This document shows, piece by piece, positions 12,318-46,106 of a stretch of DNA of 46,184 nucleotides. The notes under the pieces were generated by a model. It was not told where the DNA came from, ran no database searches, and saw only the letters and a list, made by a program, of their open reading frames with translations. Each line of letters begins with the position of its first letter. The first letter of the stretch is position 1. The stretch is from positions 1 to 46,184 of the forward strand of contig CAJWKF010000006.1 in the NCBI GenBank assembly GCA_913042265.1. The letters run 5' to 3'. Made by a program: the position numbers and the translations under genes. The stretch comes from an uncultured Gammaproteobacteria bacterium. Its GTDB lineage: Bacteria; Pseudomonadota; Gammaproteobacteria; Nitrosococcales; Methylophagaceae.

Positions 12318-14051
12318 ATGGCTGGCCAAATTCCTCCCCAATTTATTGATGACTTATTAATTCGTGTAGATATCACTGATGTCATAGACGCTAGGGTTCC
12401 GCTTAAGAAAGCAGGAAAAAACCTACAAGCGTGCTGCCCTTTTCATAACGAAAAAACTCCTTCTTTTACTGTGAGTTCTGAAAAACAGTTCTATCATTGT
12501 TTTGGATGTGGAGCACACGGTACAGCGATTGGGTTTTTGATGGAATATGATCAGATGAGCTTTCCAGAAGCTATTCATGAGCTAGCCGATTCTGTGGGCA
12601 TGATTGTACCGACTTCACAGTCATTCACTCCTAATCCAGCGAAACAGAACTTGTATGAATTGTTGGATAAAGTGAGCCAGTTTTATATTCAACAATTACA
12701 GACACACCCTAAGCGTAACGAATTCAAGAGTTATCTCAAACAGCGCGGCTTATCATCTGCGATTATTGAGCACTTTGGTATAGGTATGGCTCCAGAAGGT
12801 TGGGACTATGTCCTTAAGAAATTTGGAGGTTCGAAGCAAGCAATAGACCAGTTAAATGAAGCCGGGTTATTGAGCAGTAACGATAAAGGTAGTACATATG
12901 ATCGTTTTCGTAACCGAGTTATGTTTCCAATTAGAGATCGGCGAGGCCGAGTTATTGGCTTTGGTGGTAGAGTTTTAGATGATAGTACGCCAAAATATTT
13001 AAACTCACCCGAAACGCCTGTATTTCATAAAGGTCATGAGCTCTATGGGCTATATCAAGCGCGAAAAGCGAATCGAAAGCTAGAGCGGCTCATCATCGTT
13101 GAAGGTTACATGGATGTCATTGCATTAGCAGAAAAAGGTATTAGTAATGCAGTTGCTACTCTAGGAACTGCCACCACTCCAGAGCACCTGAGGCAACTAC
13201 AGCGAAGCGCACCAGAAGTCATTTTTTGTTTTGATGGAGATAGGGCAGGAAGAGAAGCTGCATGGCGTGCGGCTGAAAATGCATTACCCTTATTGGGAGG
13301 GAATCATCAGCTCAAATTTATGTTCCTTCCTGAAGGCGAAGATCCTGACACGTTAGTTAAACAAGAGGGTGCTGATGCTTTTAACAAGTTAGTTACTGAT
13401 GCTATGAATTTTTCAGATTTCTTTTTTGAAAGCTTAGAAAAGCGGGTTGATATTGACTCTATGGATGGAAGGGCAAGGTTAATTGAAATTGCCCGGCCAT
13501 ATTTAAGGCACATTCCCACAGGTGTTTATCGCGATATGTTTGAGCAGCGTTTAGTAGAGAGGGCGCAAACAAGCACCGCGGTATTACATAAGCATCTAGA
13601 AACGCCACCTAAAGCAGAAAAAATTATTAATAAAATGACTGGGGTATCCACCGGTATGTCACCGATTAGGATGGCCATTACAATTCTTCTGCAACACCCA
13701 GAGCTACATAAAGCCGTTGGTGATTTTGACAAGATTGCAAATTTATCACGACCGGGAATTGCTATTTTGATAGAGCTACTTGAAACTTTACGTCAACAAC
13801 CACATTTGAATACTGCTGCTTTATTAGAAAGAGCAAGAGAAGCAGAACATGCTGACCATTTAATAAAGTTAGCGATACAAACGTTAACTTTAAGCGCAAA
13901 AGAGCTGGAACATGAATTAGTCGGTGCTGTGGAACAATTGCAACAGGAGGCTCAAAAGTCACGTCATGAAGTTCTGATGGCAAAGGGCTTGAGTCAGCTA
14001 ACACAAGAAGAGCGAGAAGAAATTCAACGACTAGAAATAAGAATGAGGTGA
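12318..14051 (+). CDS. dnaG: DNA primase
   Basis: This 577-residue primase makes RNA primers at the replication fork and binds DnaB helicase. The CHC2 zinc ligands are Cys40, His43, Cys61 and Cys64 (CPFH and CFGC). The TOPRIM domain has the acidic EGYMDVIAL (Glu262, Asp266) and [15 protein letters not shown]. The C-terminal part from about 435 is the helicase-interaction domain. Length and order fit the family. It lies 73 bases after yqeY, and about 100 bases before the rpoD start. Confidence 0.98.
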
Positions 14052-37969: not shown

Positions 37970-38177
37970 GTGAACAGCTTTTAACGAGAAAAAGAGTAGA
38001 CTTCATAATGGCTATTTCAATTTTGAAAACTACAAAGAGAATAATTATTAAATCCGAATAAAAGAATGAGAAGTGGAATTACTTGAACAAATAGGACTAG
38101 GCTTACTTAACACTATAATAAAAAGCTAGCTAAGAGTCGCTGGGTCAAAAAAATGAACTAAAGGACATAAACAGGCT

Positions 38178-38933
38178 ATGACAAAAGGTAGTAACAAACT
38201 GGCTTGGATTACCGGAGGTGGTACCGGAATTGGCAAAGCATTGGCATTAGCTTTGGATAAGCGGGGGTGGCAAGTTATAATTTCTGGTAGAACAGAACAA
38301 AAGCTCCAGGCTGTTGTAGAGCTTGGCAAAAAAATAGCTTATCTGACGTTAGATGTAACGGATAGGGAGCAGAGTCAGCAAGTTTTTAATACCTTATACG
38401 AGAAGTACGGGCTACCGGACGTCGTTGTTTTAAATGCTGGTGATTACACCCCGATGCCAGTAGATGAATTTAACCTTGACTTGATTTATAAGCTGAATCA
38501 AGTGAATTACTTAGGGGTCATGAATGGGCTTGCCTCAATACTACCTTTGATGAAAGCACGTAAATCAGGACAAATATTACTTATGGCCAGTGTGGCGGGT
38601 TACCGAGGCTTACCAGATGCTGCGCCATATGGAGCAACGAAAGCTGCTTTAATCAATTTTTGTGAGGCGATGTATATACCCTTGAAAAAGGAGGGTGTTT
38701 TGTTGCGAATAATTAACCCTGGCTTTGTAACAACACAGTTAACGGCGAAAAATACTTTTAAGATGCCAGCGGAAATAACATCAACTGAAGCAGCAGGGCG
38801 AATAGTTAAAGCGCTTGCATCGGAGAGTTTTGAAATTACATTTCCAAAGCGTTTCACCTACATTTTAAAAATATTACGTATTTTACCTTATCGGCTTTAT
38901 TTCTTCTTTACCAGTAAAATAATAGGTAAATAG
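38178..38933 (+). CDS. Short-chain dehydrogenase/reductase of the lipid-modification cluster
   Basis: This 251-residue classical SDR has the cofactor motif TGGGTGIG (12-19), NAG at 86-88 and the catalytic Ser138, Tyr151 and Lys155 (YGATK). The C-terminal part from about 220 (ILKILRILPYRLYFFFTSK) is hydrophobic and may bind the membrane. Its stop is directly followed by the ATG of the SnoaL-like gene, so the two are one operon. TATAAT at 38114-38119 could be its -10. It faces the FAD/CFA-type gene run and probably reduces or oxidises an acyl or lipid intermediate; substrate unknown. Confidence 0.88.
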   Translation: MTKGSNKLAWITGGGTGIGKALALALDKRGWQVIISGRTEQKLQAVVELGKKIAYLTLDVTDREQSQQVFNTLYEKYGLPDVVVLNAGDYTPMPVDEFNLDLIYKLNQVNYLGVMNGLASILPLMKARKSGQILLMASVAGYRGLPDAAPYGATKAALINFCEAMYIPLKKEGVLLRIINPGFVTTQLTAKNTFKMPAEITSTEAAGRIVKALASESFEITFPKRFTYILKILRILPYRLYFFFTSKIIGK

Positions 38934-39359
38934 ATGGTTTCTCGACAACATGCATTGAATAGTTATATTGTTTTCTTTGAACAAATGAAAAGGGAAGATT
39001 TAGTTCGGCTGCCAGAGTTTTTTTCTCATCAAGCTCGCTTTAAAGACCCCTTTAATGATGTAACGGGCATTGAACAAATTAATAAAGTTTTTCATCACAT
39101 GTTTGAGACTTTAAATACGCCTAAATTTGTTATTGATGAAGCTGTTTTAGAGTCTGATGTAGCTTATATAAAATGGAAGTTTACGGGTGCTGTAAATACC
39201 AAGCAATTAAAACTGGTTGGGCTCAGTAGAGTAGTCTTTGATGAACAAGGCCTTGTTTCAGAACATATCGATTACTGGGATGCGAGTGAACAGTTTTATA
39301 TGAAGCTACCGATCATCGGTAGTATTTTACGTTTTATTCGTAATAAAGCTGCCAATTAA
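38934..39359 (+). CDS. SnoaL-like / NTF2-fold protein
   Basis: This 141-residue protein has the features of nuclear transport factor 2 or SnoaL-like domains: HQARFKDPFNDVTGIEQINKVFHHMFETL near the start and VSEHIDYWDASEQFYMKLPIIGSILRFIRNK at the end. Such folds form small hydrophobic pockets used by isomerases, hydrolases or binding proteins. Genes of this type usually sit beside the SDR, FAD and CFA-like genes found here. Its TAA is directly joined to the stop of the convergent chalcone-isomerase-like gene with no base between. Confidence 0.85.
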   Translation: MVSRQHALNSYIVFFEQMKREDLVRLPEFFSHQARFKDPFNDVTGIEQINKVFHHMFETLNTPKFVIDEAVLESDVAYIKWKFTGAVNTKQLKLVGLSRVVFDEQGLVSEHIDYWDASEQFYMKLPIIGSILRFIRNKAAN

Positions 39360-39908
39360 TTACCAATTGAGAAGCTCTGTCCTGAGAGATTCAGATAAAG
39401 AGTTTTCGGCTAACCACAGACCAAGGTAGTATCGGGCAAAGCTGATGTTGGTGTTTTGGTAAAGTAACTTATCATTAAAGAATAGAGAAAGTCCTTTATC
39501 ATGATGAATATCTAGACGAAAGCGGTCACCGCTAATGACGTCCTGATAAAAACCGTGCAGAGCATCAATATCATTTTGATATAAGGCCTGTTGATTTTTA
39601 GTATTTTGGCGGCTGAGAACCTCATCTGCACTGTCGATTAACTGAGACTTAGAAAGAGATACTTTATAGTGGAGCTCAAGAGAAAAAGGGTGGTTAACTT
39701 TCAAAACCTGACCGGCCTGCACACCTGGTGCAGCATAAAGAGCAGCATCATAAACATCAATAAAACCAAGCCAAGTTGCTGTAGCCATGGACTTTAGTTC
39801 AATTTCACCGCGCGATGGTTGAAAATCAAGCTGTGAGGGTGGCATAGCCCAGCTAATATTAAAGAGTAATGAATAAGTAATCCATACAAAAAATATGTGC
39901 TTTTTCAT
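39360..39908 (-). CDS. Periplasmic chalcone isomerase-like protein
   Basis: This 182-residue protein has a signal peptide at residues 1-21 (ISWAMPP). The rest matches the bacterial chalcone-isomerase-fold family (GEIELKSMATATWLGFIDVYDAALYAAPG; FARYYLGLWL near the C-terminus). Bacteria lacking flavonoids use this fold for fatty-acid or lipid binding. It is the last gene of the minus-strand run, 3 bases after the DUF3833 gene. A catalytic activity is not supported by the sequence alone. Confidence 0.82.
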   Translation of the reverse strand: MKKHIFFVWITYSLLFNISWAMPPSQLDFQPSRGEIELKSMATATWLGFIDVYDAALYAAPGVQAGQVLKVNHPFSLELHYKVSLSKSQLIDSADEVLSRQNTKNQQALYQNDIDALHGFYQDVISGDRFRLDIHHDKGLSLFFNDKLLYQNTNISFARYYLGLWLAENSLSESLRTELLNW

Positions 39909-39911
39909 AAC

Positions 39912-40442
39912 TTATGGGGTTTTGAAGATGAGTGTAACTTCACCTAAAAATATACCAAATTTTGTCATTTTCGCCCGATTAATGAGCACACCGTCTTCTT
40001 GTAAAAACATCCAGTCATCAAACTGTACTTTGATTGTCCCCTCTTTATAAGGGAGATCTAGCGTATATGCCCAATTCAGACTATTACCGTAAGCTTTACC
40101 AGTAGCGTGTCCAATTACATCAGCTGCTCGACCTTCATAGTTGTTTTCATCAATTTTATTAATAGTCCACACACGTCTATCTATGGTTCCATCAGAATAT
40201 GTAAAGTCTTCCTCTAATACAAGATCTCCATCTACTATTTTACCTAAGATGTCGACAGTAAACTGCCTTTCAACATCACCGCTACGGTTTTGGAATATGC
40301 CCCAAGCACGTGTTTGGCCCAAAAAATAGTCTTCTAAAATTAAGCGAGGTGTAGTGTTTTTATAGTGCTCTGGAGTCATATTGTTACAGCCAGTGAGGTT
40401 AAAAAGAAAGAACGATAATAAAATTAAGAGGCTCTTGTTCAT
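39912..40442 (-). CDS. DUF3833 family lipoprotein
   Basis: This 176-residue protein has a signal peptide with lipobox LTGC (Cys19), followed by a beta-rich domain with RLILEDYFLGQTRAWGIFQNRSGDVERQFTVDI and GVLINRAKMTKFGIFLGEVTLIFKTP, which I recognise as DUF3833. Its function is unknown, but it recurs beside the FAD, DUF1365 and CFA-like genes. It lies between the transporter gene (10-base gap) and the chalcone-isomerase-like gene. Confidence 0.87.
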   Translation of the reverse strand: MNKSLLILLSFFLFNLTGCNNMTPEHYKNTTPRLILEDYFLGQTRAWGIFQNRSGDVERQFTVDILGKIVDGDLVLEEDFTYSDGTIDRRVWTINKIDENNYEGRAADVIGHATGKAYGNSLNWAYTLDLPYKEGTIKVQFDDWMFLQEDGVLINRAKMTKFGIFLGEVTLIFKTP

Positions 40443-40452
40443 ACTATGGTTC

Positions 40453-41742
40453 CTAAGTTAGTTGTTGTATATGTCTTTGTTGCTGGCGGTCTAAGGGGAA
40501 ATTCCAGATTGTCCAAGCAGCTACTAGCTTAAAAGGGATTGGTAGAAGGCCATAAAGCAGAGTAAGTGCTAATAAATTATTATCTGCAGGTGCTGTTTGT
40601 GTATCAAAGCCCAAAAAGACTAATAAAGGAAAAGCAATGCCGACAGCTAATGCCAGTGATAGCTTCGTGGCCATACCCCAAAGACCAAAGAAAAACCCAC
40701 TTCGCTGCCCGCCGCCATTTGCGCTATCAACATCAATCACATCAGCTTGAATTGAGGCCGGTAAGGCCATATCGATACCTAAGCTTAGTCCAGACAGAAT
40801 ACAGATAAGAAGGAAAGGTAGAAAGTCTCCTGCCCCTAGGCTGGGGACCCATGCAAAAATACCAACAGCCCACAACATTGATACACCCCATACACGATGT
40901 TTATTATAACGCTTGGCGAGCTTCACTCCTATAGGTAAACCTATTAAACCGCTGATAAAATAGGCCGATAATAACAGGCCAAACTGTTCGGGCATGACCA
41001 AAACATAGCTCACGAATAGCAAGAAGAGTGTCGCGGGTAGGCCGTTAGCGATGCCATTCATAAAATAAGCAAAAAGTAACCTTATAAACAAGCGGTTGTT
41101 TTTTAGTAAAGTTAACCCCGCCCGATAACTGATAGGCTTTGTACGCCGATTAGACTCGGGTACCTTGAGAATGCAAACCAGGATAGTAATAGGAAGAAGA
41201 ATAGTTAAAGATTGGGCGAGAATAAGTAATGCTTTGCCAGGTTCATCACTAGCAATGCCCATTGTTAAGGGTAAACCTGCAGCAAATAAAGTGCCGATTA
41301 AAACAAAGCTTTCGCGGCTGGCTGTTATTGTACTTCGCTGGTCATAATCACCTGACAACTCAGCTCCCCAGGCGTTATAAGGCAAGGTGAGTAGACTCCA
41401 AGCGAAATAAACAAGAATACTCCAGAGTAAAAGCCAATAAAAACTACTTCCTTCAGGCGGCACAAAAAGTGCCCAAAGGGCTATGATTAATAATGGCGTA
41501 GCTATAGCCATTAACCATTTACGCCTTGATGGCATAGGTAGCCAATCAGAGAATATCCCTATCATTGGGTCTGTGATGACGTCACTGATACGCGCGATCA
41601 TTAAAGCTAATCCGACAGCGGCAAGGCCAAGGCCTAATTGCTCAGCATAAAAAGTGGGTAAGTAAATATAAAGGGGCAGGCCCAAAGCGGCCAAGGGTAG
41701 GCCCGGCAGACCATAAAACCAATAGCGAATAATTTGAGACAA
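40453..41742 (-). CDS. GPH/MFS_2-family transporter
   Basis: This protein of about 429 residues has 12 predicted membrane helices. After the first helix it carries ISDVITDPMIGIFSDW, the two-Asp motif of the MelB-type GPH family. I propose the TTG at 41740-41742 giving MSQIIRYWFYGLPGLPLAALGLPLYIY; it is 2 bases after the stop of the methyltransferase gene. The longer in-frame start at 41832 lies inside that gene and gives a non-family N-terminus. MFS_2 members include sugar symporters and, in animals, the lysophospholipid transporter MFSD2A, so a lipid substrate is possible here but unproven. Confidence 0.85.
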   Translation of the reverse strand: MSQIIRYWFYGLPGLPLAALGLPLYIYLPTFYAEQLGLGLAAVGLALMIARISDVITDPMIGIFSDWLPMPSRRKWLMAIATPLLIIALWALFVPPEGSSFYWLLLWSILVYFAWSLLTLPYNAWGAELSGDYDQRSTITASRESFVLIGTLFAAGLPLTMGIASDEPGKALLILAQSLTILLPITILVCILKVPESNRRTKPISYRAGLTLLKNNRLFIRLLFAYFMNGIANGLPATLFLLFVSYVLVMPEQFGLLLSAYFISGLIGLPIGVKLAKRYNKHRVWGVSMLWAVGIFAWVPSLGAGDFLPFLLICILSGLSLGIDMALPASIQADVIDVDSANGGGQRSGFFFGLWGMATKLSLALAVGIAFPLLVFLGFDTQTAPADNNLLALTLLYGLLPIPFKLVAAWTIWNFPLDRQQQRHIQQLT

Positions 41743-41744
41743 TG

Positions 41745-42962
41745 TTAGTGTGGTTTTGACATTAAGTATTGATAAACCCCGGTGTGCTGCTCCCGAAAAC
41801 CTGCTTCGCAGTATGATAAATAATATCGCCACATACGTATGAATTGATTATCGTAACCGAGATCTTCTACTTGGTGTACAACCTCATTAAACCCTTGATG
41901 CCAAGCGAGAACAGTCTGTTCATAGTGAGAGCCGTAGTTAGTGGCTTGTTCGATCTTAAGTCCTGCCTGTTGTGCATGTTGAGAAAAAATTTCAGGAGAA
42001 GGCAACATACCTCCTGGGAAAATATAGCGTTGAATAAAATCCACATTTTGTCGATAGTGGTCAAAATATTGGTCGTCAATGGTTATTGTTTGTAGGGCTA
42101 TTCTGCCTCCTGATTTTAGACGTGCAAATAACATTTCAAAAAAGCCGGGCCAATAAGACTCCCCAACGGCTTCAAACATTTCAATACTTACAATATGATC
42201 GAACTGTTCTTCTATCTCACGGTAATCTTGTAACCGTAAGTCAACAAGGGAATCAAAGCCTGCATCACGAATCCGCTGTTGTCCCCATGCTAATTGTTCA
42301 GTTGATAAGGTGACTCCGGTCACTTGATAACCTTGCTTAGCAGCATGTTCAGCAAAACCTCCCCAACCGCAGCCTACTTCTAGAATGTGTTGTCCAGGCG
42401 CTGCACCGAGAGAAGATAGTAAGAGTTCATATTTTCGAGTTTGTGCTTGCTCAAGACTATCAGACGGATCAGCGAAAATGGCACTTGAATAAGTCATCGT
42501 TGAGTCAAGCCATAACTGATAGAAGTCATTACCTAAATCATAATGTGCAGAGATATTGCGACGGCTACCTCGTTGACTGTTTCGTCGAGTTATATGGCGC
42601 AGGCGATTAAATAAGCGAATAAAGAAATTAGCTTCAAGGTGGGTAGATAATTCTTCTAAGTTGAGTGTAGCCCAGTAGAGGAAGTCAGATAGGTTACTCG
42701 TGTCCCAATCACCTTGCATATAGGCCTCGGCAAAACCAATATCACCATCTCTACTTAACTTTTTGATGATTTTTAAGCTTTTATGAATGGTTATGTTTGC
42801 ATCTGGGCCCGGCTGTTTTCCTTCAACAAGGTAAGTTTCGGCATCAACTGTAATGTGAAGGCGACCTCGCTTACATTTCGATAATAATTGATAGAGCAGC
42901 TTAATTGTAAGTGGTGCGCTGGAATCAGGAAGTAATCTTATTTTCGTGTTTTGACTAACCAT
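41745..42962 (-). CDS. Cyclopropane-fatty-acyl-phospholipid synthase-type methyltransferase
   Basis: This 405-residue SAM-dependent enzyme acts on the double bond of membrane phospholipid acyl chains. The SAM loop EVGCGWGGFAEHAAKQG is at 195-211, and YDLGNDFYQLWLDSTMTYSSA is the family motif around the acyl site (about 141-161). FPGGMLPSP and HYRQNVDFIQRYIFPGG match. It may produce cyclopropane or methyl-branched chains; the family includes both, and its neighbours favour a further modified product. It overlaps the DUF1365 gene by 25 bases at its 5' end and is followed 2 bases after its stop by the transporter start. Confidence 0.92.
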   Translation of the reverse strand: MVSQNTKIRLLPDSSAPLTIKLLYQLLSKCKRGRLHITVDAETYLVEGKQPGPDANITIHKSLKIIKKLSRDGDIGFAEAYMQGDWDTSNLSDFLYWATLNLEELSTHLEANFFIRLFNRLRHITRRNSQRGSRRNISAHYDLGNDFYQLWLDSTMTYSSAIFADPSDSLEQAQTRKYELLLSSLGAAPGQHILEVGCGWGGFAEHAAKQGYQVTGVTLSTEQLAWGQQRIRDAGFDSLVDLRLQDYREIEEQFDHIVSIEMFEAVGESYWPGFFEMLFARLKSGGRIALQTITIDDQYFDHYRQNVDFIQRYIFPGGMLPSPEIFSQHAQQAGLKIEQATNYGSHYEQTVLAWHQGFNEVVHQVEDLGYDNQFIRMWRYYLSYCEAGFREQHTGVYQYLMSKPH

Positions 42963-43720
42963 TCGCTTTTGACCTCTTGCTGTTGTTTTTTGTCATAAGA
43001 ATGAAACTTTCCACCACGTATCCATATTTTTAATGCGTGCCAATGGATCATAAGCATTATTTTGAAAGACATCATTGGCATCATAAAAAAAGCCTTGAGC
43101 AAATGTAAGTTGTTTAAGGTTTCAATTTTAGAGTTTTGAGACGCAATGAAATGAAGTTGATCATTCTGGTATTCGTTGATTAAAATGCCGAAGCTAGCTT
43201 TCGCTTGACTAAATTTAAAGTGATACTGTTGGTCCTTATTAATGAATGGGGAAACATAAAATCGCTTTTCTGCAATACATTCCACCGGCCACTGTAAACT
43301 TTTCCCTTCATGGTGATGGACATAATGGTAAGCATCACCAAAGGTATTGCTAACCTCACTAATAATCGCAACAGTTTCACCATCTTGACCATCACAATAC
43401 CAAACTGAAATGGGATTAAAACCATAACCCAAAACACGAGGGAAACATGATAACCGGATGCGACAAACATTATGTATGCCTGCATCAGATAATGTTTGTT
43501 CTACCCATGGCCGCCAGGCAGTTCCGTCTCTAGGACCATGATCCTGTTTTCGGAGACTGAGTAAATTAAACCGTTCTAAACTAAGCCACCTCAATGAGGA
43601 GGCTTCTTGCTCAATAAGATCTATATCAATCAATAACCCAAAGACCTTGTAGGTAAACTGATAGACCATAGGGAACATACGTTGGTGCATGACATGCCCA
43701 AAAAAGAGCTTACTTGCCAT
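42938..43720 (-). CDS. DUF1365 domain-containing protein
   Basis: This 260-residue protein begins with the DUF1365 signature KLFFGHVMHQRMFPMVYQFTYKVF and contains FNPISVWYCDGQDG and YHYVHHHEGKS followed by EKRFYVSPFI. Many histidines (for example HVMHQR) could form a metal or acid-base site. The family always lies between a flavoprotein and a CFA-like gene, as here, and has no proven function. It overlaps the flavoprotein gene by 11 bases and the methyltransferase gene by 25, so all three are translationally linked. Confidence 0.9.
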   Translation of the reverse strand: MASKLFFGHVMHQRMFPMVYQFTYKVFGLLIDIDLIEQEASSLRWLSLERFNLLSLRKQDHGPRDGTAWRPWVEQTLSDAGIHNVCRIRLSCFPRVLGYGFNPISVWYCDGQDGETVAIISEVSNTFGDAYHYVHHHEGKSLQWPVECIAEKRFYVSPFINKDQQYHFKFSQAKASFGILINEYQNDQLHFIASQNSKIETLNNLHLLKAFFMMPMMSFKIMLMIHWHALKIWIRGGKFHSYDKKQQQEVKSEWLVKTRK

Positions 43721-45008
43721 GGGATAATCCCTCTTCCCATGGAATAGGGACGTTCAAATCCCTAGCAATAGAAACGGCAGAACTCAGTGCATCCTCATGG
43801 AAGCCATACCCAAAGTAACTGCCTGCAAACCAAGTTCTATTTTGACCCTGTAATTTATAGAGTTGTTTTTGAGCCGCCATGGCACGATTATCGAAAATAG
43901 GGTGCATATAATTAATTCTTTGAATAATCTTTTGAGGAGCAATTTTATGAATTGGGTTTAAGCTAACAAAGTAGTTTTGTGATTCATCTAAGCCCTGCAA
44001 TGCATTCATCCAGTAGCTGACAGACACCGAAGGTGCCGTCTCGCCACTCTGCTTTGCAAGATAGTTCCAGCATGACCAAACTTTTGAGAGTGTTGGCATG
44101 AGATTGGAATCAGTATGTAAATAAGTATCGTTTTCTTGATAGCGAAATGAAGATAATAGGGTTTGTTCGAGTTTGGACTTATTTTTGAGTATAGACAAAG
44201 CTTCATCAGCATGAGTGGCAATAACAACTTGGTCTACAATACATTCTTGCCCATCTTCTAATTTAATAACGACAGAATCAGTTTTTCTATCTATTTTGGT
44301 AGCCCCATTGTTGATAATCGTTTCTCCAGAAAACGAGGCTAACAACTTATCGACATAGCGTTGGCTTCCACCCGTAACGGTCCGCCACTGAGGGCGGTCT
44401 TTAACATTTAGTAAGCCATGATTATTAAAAAACTGAGCAAAACTTTTAGCTGGGAACGATTGCATTTGTTGAGGTGGACAAGACCATATGGCTGCAGCCA
44501 TGGGCAGCAAATAATCATCCTGCATCGGTTTACCAATACGTAGATCGGAGAGGAAGTCACCTAAAGTGAGTTTAGAGTCAGCTTGATTATTACTAATAAG
44601 TGCTTTGGCATTTCGATTAAACTTAAGGATGTCATAAACTAACTTGATAAACCTTGGAGATAACAGGTTTTTCCGTTGGGCAAATAGAGTATCTAGGTTA
44701 TTACCAGCATATTCCAATCCTGAATTCAAAATCGAAGCCGAGAAGGTCATGTCGGTCGCCTGTGTTTTCACATCAAGAGCATTTAGTAAACCGACTAAAT
44801 TTGGGTAGTTCGGTTCGTTATAGACAATAAACCCTGTATCCACCGCAGTATCAATACCTGTCTTTTCATTAGCTACTGAAATTGTATTGGTGTGTCCACC
44901 AATGTAGTTATTCTTGTCGATCAAAACTACTTGGTATCGTTGACTTAATAGCCATGCACTAGCCATACCAGCTATACCCGTTCCTATGACTGCTATTTTC
45001 TTAGTCAA
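43710..45008 (-). CDS. FAD-dependent amine-oxidase-like flavoprotein
   Basis: This 432-residue protein has the dinucleotide motif VIGTGIAGM at 6-14 and the GGHTNT loop that follows. It resembles the amine oxidase/phytoene desaturase superfamily. Other motifs are AVDTGFIVYNEPNYPNL, QWRTVTGGSQRYV and FAGSYFGYGFHEDALSSAVS at the C-terminus. In clusters of this kind the flavoprotein is thought to desaturate or oxidise an acyl chain modified by the CFA-type methyltransferase; that is inference. It comes 52 bases after the TIGR01777 gene on the same strand. Confidence 0.9.
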   Translation of the reverse strand: MTKKIAVIGTGIAGMASAWLLSQRYQVVLIDKNNYIGGHTNTISVANEKTGIDTAVDTGFIVYNEPNYPNLVGLLNALDVKTQATDMTFSASILNSGLEYAGNNLDTLFAQRKNLLSPRFIKLVYDILKFNRNAKALISNNQADSKLTLGDFLSDLRIGKPMQDDYLLPMAAAIWSCPPQQMQSFPAKSFAQFFNNHGLLNVKDRPQWRTVTGGSQRYVDKLLASFSGETIINNGATKIDRKTDSVVIKLEDGQECIVDQVVIATHADEALSILKNKSKLEQTLLSSFRYQENDTYLHTDSNLMPTLSKVWSCWNYLAKQSGETAPSVSVSYWMNALQGLDESQNYFVSLNPIHKIAPQKIIQRINYMHPIFDNRAMAAQKQLYKLQGQNRTWFAGSYFGYGFHEDALSSAVSIARDLNVPIPWEEGLSHGK

Positions 45009-45060
45009 AATACATTCCTTAAGCTCACAATGGCATTATGACCGATATAAACTTTATCTG

Positions 45061-45978
45061 TCATAAGGTTTCCTTTCCTTGAGTTAAGATGTTGTTTAGT
45101 GCTGGTGCTAGATAAGCATATGTAAAATTAAACCCGTTTTCTAATACTCGCTGAGGTACTGCGCGTTGCCCTGTCAGCAATAAAGATGACATTTCACCTA
45201 ACAATATTTTTAATAGCCATTCAGGTGCGGGAAGAAGTTTGTAACGGTGTAGTTGTTTAGCAAGCTCTGTGGTGAATTCATCATTAGTCACAGGGTTAGG
45301 AGCAGAGGCGTTAAAAACACCATTTAATTTCTCGCTCGAAGCTAAAAAAATTATTAAATTAACCATGTCGGAAATATGAATCCAAGGCATATATTGATGG
45401 CCTTCACCAAAATTACCCCCTAGATTAAATTTAAAGGGTAATAACATTTTTTTTAATACGCCCCCCTTTGATGTCAACACTAAACCTGTTCTGATGACAC
45501 AGACTCTGATGCCTGCTTTATCTGCTTTAAATGCTTGTTTTTCCCAGGCAGCACAGAGCTTATGAGTATATTCATCGTGATATTTAGATTGTTCCGTTAA
45601 AATTTGGTCACCACCATCACCATACCAACCAACTGCAGAACCACTAATTAAACATTCTGGTTTTTGTTTTCTATGGAAGATCCAATTCACAAGTTCTCGT
45701 GTTGTGTTGATTCGACTTGACTCTAACAATTCTTTTCGTTTATCTGACCATTTAGCGTTGGCAATGGGTTCACCTGCAAGATTTATCACAATATCTATTG
45801 TGTTATCAGGTGATATTTCAGTTAAGGACTGAATAGCCTTAACATTAATGCCACATTTATCTCTAACATTTCTGGGGGTTCTACTAAGGACTGTGACGTC
45901 ATGTCCTCCAGCTATTAATTGTTGACATAATTCTGAGCCAATTAGACCTGATCCACCAGATATTAGGTAGTGCTTCAT
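45061..45978 (-). CDS. TIGR01777 family epimerase (NAD-dependent, YfcH-like)
   Basis: This 305-residue extended SDR has the N-terminal NAD(P) motif SGGSGLIGSEL, INLAGEPIANAKWSDKRKELLE, the ISGSAVGWYGD motif with its catalytic Ser/Tyr pair, and WIHISDMVNLIIF. The C-terminal LLTGQRAVPQRVLENGFNFTY is typical of the family. E. coli YfcH is a homologue of unknown function. It is the first gene of the seven-gene minus-strand run; an AAGG lies about 11 bases before the ATG. I see no clear promoter or ECF sigma site before it. Confidence 0.9.
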   Translation of the reverse strand: MKHYLISGGSGLIGSELCQQLIAGGHDVTVLSRTPRNVRDKCGINVKAIQSLTEISPDNTIDIVINLAGEPIANAKWSDKRKELLESSRINTTRELVNWIFHRKQKPECLISGSAVGWYGDGGDQILTEQSKYHDEYTHKLCAAWEKQAFKADKAGIRVCVIRTGLVLTSKGGVLKKMLLPFKFNLGGNFGEGHQYMPWIHISDMVNLIIFLASSEKLNGVFNASAPNPVTNDEFTTELAKQLHRYKLLPAPEWLLKILLGEMSSLLLTGQRAVPQRVLENGFNFTYAYLAPALNNILTQGKETL

Positions 45979-46065: not shown

Positions 46066-46106
46066 AAAAAAAAAGCAACGACATTAGTAAATGTCATTGC
46101 TTTTTT
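46066..46106. terminator. Bidirectional terminator upstream of the TIGR01777 gene
   Basis: GCAACGACATT and AATGTCATTGC form a nearly perfect stem (one G-U type mismatch), flanked by an A/T-run on both sides (A run at 46066-46074, T run at 46101-46106). Its main use is to end the minus-strand gene at the window edge, whose stop is 18 bases away. Confidence 0.85.

Follow-up and report, generated by a model that had tools for sequence, protein, structure and literature searches.

A probable ufa-type furan fatty acid gene cluster with a candidate lipid transporter in an uncultured member of the Methylophagaceae

The window, a stretch of 46,184 nucleotides, was the complete contig C6 of genome G000, an uncultured gammaproteobacterium of the family Methylophagaceae with a genome of 1.18 Mb at 84% completeness. 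Nine genes were arranged in two convergent arms. The plus strand held a short-chain dehydrogenase (SDR; 38178..38933, adh_short, E 4e-43), directly followed by a gene for a small SnoaL-like protein (38934..39359, SnoaL_2, E 1e-11). The minus strand comprised a secreted chalcone-isomerase-like protein (39360..39908, Chalcone_3, E 4e-17) with a signal-peptide-like N-terminal stretch, a DUF3833 lipoprotein (39912..40442, PF12915, E 1e-64, lipobox LTGC), an MFS_2/GPH cation symporter (40453..41742), a CFA-type SAM methyltransferase (41745..42962, CMAS, E 1e-87), a DUF1365 protein (42938..43720, PF07103, E 1e-69), an amine-oxidase-like FAD protein (43710..45008, Amino_oxidase/NAD_binding_8) and a TIGR01777 epimerase-like protein (45061..45978, TIGR01777, 350 bits). 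The nine open reading frames and their strands in a preliminary description of this DNA were borne out, and the families named by Pfam and NCBIfam agreed with it. The spacings agreed as well, with 52 bases between the epimerase and FAD genes, overlaps of 11 (FAD/DUF1365) and 25 bases (DUF1365/CFA) and then gaps of 2, 10 and 3 bases. The 2-base gap between the CFA and transporter genes requires a TTG start at 41742 for the transporter. Its longest frame starts at 41832, overlapping the CFA gene by 88 bases. The SnoaL and chalcone-isomerase-like genes met stop to stop (39359/39360). Since the window was a whole contig, the left arm, on the minus strand, stopped 206 bases short of the contig end. 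Read directly from the sequence, a hairpin with T runs beside it on each strand (46075..46100) stood between this arm and an upstream gene and likely bounds the arm.

Each of the 10 congeneric loci read had the eight genes from the SDR to the FAD gene, unchanged in order and orientation, a recurrence that exceeds chance. The linkage of FAD-DUF1365-CFA sets with the transporter, which the preliminary description had proposed to check in relatives, was found in every one of them. Its treatment of all nine genes as a unit held only for these eight. The TIGR01777 gene adjoined the cluster in 5 of 11 congeneric loci, the window included, and is therefore regarded as an optional neighbour. Thiothrix lacustris (L139) had the same layout plus one additional ORF. 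DUF3833 was present in 11/11 DUF1365-positive genomes of the genus and in 0/10 negative genomes searched, indicating that the module was gained or lost as a unit within the genus.

In the window, the FAD, DUF1365 and CFA genes had the order of UfaD, UfaO and UfaM in Rhodopseudomonas palustris, where the three are adjacent as RPA2571-2570-2569 (PMC7380195). UfaM, UfaD and UfaO convert the vaccenate of phospholipids to a methylated furan acid in Rhodobacter sphaeroides and R. palustris, and the three enzymes suffice for methyl-furan fatty acids (PMC7380195). UfaM methylates, the phytoene-desaturase-like UfaD desaturates, and UfaO, which contains DUF1365, adds an O2-derived oxygen, closing a furan (PMC7380195). 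A Halomonas also encodes ufaD-ufaO-ufaM consecutively. Its UfaM produced 11-methyl-octadec-12-enoate in Escherichia coli, and cyclic acids were detected too upon UfaM overexpression (PMC12089945). The triplet occurred in nearly all DUF1365 loci read; 60 of these came from whole genomes and the other 80 were named loci, some of the loci being duplicates. R. sphaeroides and R. palustris were not among the 80 named loci, in which the Nitrobacteraceae loci L152, L166 and L167 were the nearest proxies for the tested Ufa proteins. The nearest solved structure to the FAD protein was LkcE (E 1e-32), and the window methyltransferase was the only PF02353 match found in the 84%-complete genome.

Residues H12, R14, P103, Y133, K152, S157, P158 and Y166 of the DUF1365 protein were invariant in 53 homologues. 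A sequence search with this protein against the PDB gave no relative. Its predicted structure (pLDDT 90) gave weak calycin-like matches only (best Z 7.1, rmsd 4.4, 132 residues aligned), from which no haem or other cofactor is argued. In a further genome, the DUF1365 match was split in two (G257:C2:312418-313974) and contained an in-frame TAG; this gene is possibly a pseudogene. Linked to the experimentally tested Ufa proteins by family, gene order and clade, the locus probably represents a ufa furan fatty acid cluster whose core would form methyl-furan acyl chains. The FAD protein is thus read as a UfaD homologue and likely acyl desaturase, the DUF1365 protein as a UfaO homologue and putative furan-forming oxygenase, and the methyltransferase as a UfaM homologue. 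The earlier proposal that acyl chains of phospholipids are first methylated and afterwards oxidised further gains support, as homologues of the three core genes make such chains.

The window is a fuller version of the known R. sphaeroides-type cluster. Five window genes, those for the FAD, DUF1365, GPH, DUF3833 and SDR proteins, have counterparts in the operon RSP1091-1087 of R. sphaeroides. RSP1089 is annotated as a GPH-family (sugar/cation) symporter and RSP1087 as an SDR (PMC7074977). RSP1088 would be the DUF3833 protein, judged by position and length: it has 186 residues, and the DUF3833 protein of L044, at the matching position, also has 186. Rhodobacter (Cereibacter) sphaeroides differs in that ufaM lies apart (RSP2144), whereas in the window it lies inside the cluster. 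The window further adds the chalcone-isomerase-like and SnoaL genes, places the SDR on the convergent arm and has no adjacent rpoE-chrR. The core trio of R. palustris (RPA2571-2569), whose expression in R. sphaeroides sufficed to give the methyl-furan acid, is identical in content and order, but the window has the transporter and envelope genes in addition. Single deletions of RSP1087, RSP1088 and RSP1089 left the fatty-acid profile unchanged (PMC7380195), so synthesis does not require the accessory genes.

The lack of a fatty-acid phenotype of the RSP1089 deletion, together with the GPH annotation and the listing of RSP1089 as a sugar/cation symporter, would suit an ordinary GPH symporter for sugars or small solutes, tied to the cluster only by shared stress regulation. 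This reading is possible but doubtful, as several features of the transporter speak against it. On the GPH sugar:cation symporter model TIGR00792, the protein scored 136 bits, under the cut-off of 231. By sequence, the best solved relative in the PDB was MFSD2A with 91 bits, against 21 for MelB, and the transporter as a profile scored 136 for MFSD2A and 95 for MelB. The control sugar carriers were reversed, with MelB at 129 and MFSD2A at 63 for UidB, and 192 against 64 for YicJ. In the alignment to MelB, the cation-site residues R52, D55, D59 and K377 were kept in 18/18 cluster transporters. The sugar-site residues D19, D124, W128 and W342 were replaced in all 18 members, by A/S/T, T/I/L/A, N/T/Y/V/Q and A/P/S/G, respectively. 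From the higher similarity to MFSD2A than to MelB, the retained cation site and the lost sugar site, we infer that the cluster transporter may carry a lipid substrate in a cation-coupled manner. It is listed as a predicted lysophospholipid or acyl-lipid transporter. The acidic pair and the TM11 lysine of the lysophosphatidylcholine symporter MFSD2A align with it, whereas it differs from MFSD2A in being bacterial and about 100 residues shorter, its lipid substrate being a prediction. This reading of a "sugar" transporter as a lipid carrier is new; the furan recipe itself is already known. The cluster transporter could be studied as a bacterial relative of MFSD2A, a medically important brain lipid transporter.

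In many other gammaproteobacterial clusters, DUF2878 occupied the place of the GPH transporter of the window. GPH and DUF2878 never co-occurred in 99 other loci, which are not fully independent (30 with GPH, 7 with DUF2878). This exclusivity may reflect replacement of one by the other but is confounded by ancestry.

The predicted structure of the DUF3833 protein (pLDDT 94) matched barrels of the nitrobindin, BFA1 and Ycf58 type with Z 12-15 and fatty-acid-binding proteins with Z about 9. For the natural proteins that ranked high in this search, rmsd was 2.3-3.6 over 114-142 residues. A sequence search of the PDB gave no convincing relative of this protein. It is predicted with high confidence to be a barrel lipoprotein like nitrobindin and the fatty-acid-binding proteins. 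For the chalcone-isomerase-like protein, a putative periplasmic acyl or lipid binder, a profile search of the PDB gave a member of the chalcone-isomerase family as a weak match (E 0.18). The SDR, by family the counterpart of RSP1087, recurred across families in ufa clusters, and the SnoaL-like gene was conserved in all congeneric loci.

The observations made here concern which genes are present, their synteny, the clade of the methyltransferase, the residue signatures and the predicted folds; the reactions and trafficking steps that follow are a proposal. On the model of tested homologues, the UfaM homologue would methylate a cis-unsaturated acyl chain on a membrane phospholipid, and the UfaD homologue would desaturate the methylated chain to a methylated conjugated diene. 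The UfaO homologue would then insert an O2-derived oxygen, giving a methyl-furan acyl chain. Methyl-furan acyl chains are known scavenger-type lipids. The MFSD2A-like symporter, the chalcone-isomerase-like protein and the DUF3833 lipoprotein may pass (lyso)phospholipids, whether modified or damaged, through the inner membrane and the envelope, and the SDR and SnoaL proteins may act on oxidised acyl products. The preliminary description had left the envelope proteins and the transporter without a role, and a lipid-handling role is now proposed for them. That the accessory set forms a lipid-trafficking arm is put forward tentatively, and the unaltered fatty-acid profiles of the RSP1087-1089 deletions speak against it. 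Still more speculative is the specific form of this proposal, in which the ufa-cluster transporters, RSP1089 included, are bacterial MFSD2A-type lysophospholipid symporters that, together with the DUF3833 lipoproteins and chalcone-isomerase-like proteins, provide a dedicated envelope route for furan-bearing or photo-damaged lipids. Rather than exporting new lipids, the accessory genes could serve in the repair or removal of oxidised lipids, furan or unsaturated, with import of lyso-lipids and an SDR that reduces carbonyls. The SDR, SnoaL and lipid-binding folds suit such handling of oxidised acyl products, and synthesis was not blocked by the RSP1087-1089 deletions, yet this function too is rather unlikely. 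The ufa reading explains most of the gene set by a known protective-lipid pathway, and RSP1087-1089, which lack a fatty-acid phenotype, gain a concrete hypothesis, namely lipid transport and handling.

In phylogenetic trees, the CFA-type enzymes encoded beside DUF1365 grouped in a single clade, separate from other CFA-like proteins and from E. coli Cfa. The window methyltransferase fell inside this DUF1365-linked clade, together with members of the Nitrobacteraceae, the family of R. palustris. The L050 methyltransferase was also placed there; its locus has DUF1365, not directly beside it. Residue H266 of E. coli Cfa was replaced by Q in 131/131 DUF1365-linked enzymes and in 1/22 others, that of L050. 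Residue H240 was replaced by A in 130 of the 131. His266 is a bicarbonate ligand of E. coli Cfa (PMC11387697). Cotton cyclopropane synthases also carry Gln at position 266, and two of them also C139S (PMC3132707). The reading of H266Q as evidence against a cyclopropane product was therefore rejected, and the substitution serves as a clade marker only. The cotton enzymes, as well as the annotation of the Vibrio cholerae homologue VC1122 as a CFA synthase, leave room for a cyclopropane synthase that yields methylated or cyclopropane chains and no furan, the FAD and DUF1365 proteins acting elsewhere. This is improbable, as the trees place the window enzyme in the DUF1365-linked clade and not in that of Cfa, and tested relatives of the same gene order yield 11-methyl-ene and furan products. 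Of the two options in the preliminary description, Bfa or Ufa, the latter is favoured because the DUF1365 protein corresponds to UfaO. Judged from the bfa descriptions, a Bfa-type pair making 10-methyl saturated branched acids is very improbable, since, although BfaB is a CFA homologue encoded next to a FAD protein, the bfa operon is described with two genes, whereas the window has a DUF1365 (UfaO-family) gene between flavoprotein and methyltransferase, and the flavoprotein is amine-oxidase/LkcE-like, fitting the phytoene-desaturase-like UfaD.

As seen from the tree position of the window methyltransferase, the genus of the window has the transporter-type cluster and most of the sister genus g112 the DUF2878-type. 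This split suggests horizontal acquisition or replacement.

A related arrangement was found in SAR11. FAD-DUF1365-CFA-DUF3833 with a convergent SDR made up 21 of the 80 named loci, assigned to Pelagibacteraceae/Pelagibacterales (e.g. L159, L161, L169, L171 and L175). A single paper was found that mentions furan fatty acids as well as SAR11, and it deals with dinoflagellate volatiles. The ufa core occurs in many SAR11 genomes, which bears on the origin of marine furan fatty acids and makes these bacteria a possible source.

The link to RpoE-ChrR singlet-oxygen regulation drawn in the preliminary description was not upheld. No ChrR scored over the TIGR02451 cut-off in the 62 genomes of the order, and the 84%-complete G000 gave no match. 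The ChrR-type promoter TGATC-N16-19-CGTA had 0 matches in the window, and hits with mismatches were below the chance mean. In relatives from other orders, ChrR or RpoE adjoined the cluster; L044 and L047 had the layout ChrR-RpoE followed by FAD-DUF1365-GPH-DUF3833-SDR. The light-induced clusters of Shewanella (SO_3386-3374, an operon that includes a photolyase) and of the V. cholerae VC1122 type likewise have a CFA gene in a light or singlet-oxygen response. These clusters are controlled by a ChrR-sigma system, whereas no ChrR was found in the order of the window. This suggests that furan-lipid synthesis is able to persist without the ChrR sensor.

In two congeners, a YbgA-MerR-photolyase block adjoined the ufa cluster (L105:12951-16220; L108:15764-18871). 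In G000, MerR and photolyase genes lay near each other on contig C4 (G000:C4:57914-60207). This MerR was present in 10/11 cluster-positive and 3/17 negative genomes of the genus (Fisher p 0.0003, uncorrected for ancestry). A light-linked MerR regulator of the ufa cluster is a reasonable lead. In L105 the TIGR01777 and YbgA genes diverge, and the stretch that separates them (12841-12950) holds TTGTACAAGAATATTTATTTGTATAATAATG, possibly a MerR-type operator or promoter. Upstream of the SDR, a CTAG ... GCTGGGTCAAA element was located at 38127-38150 of the window and found again in several congeners.
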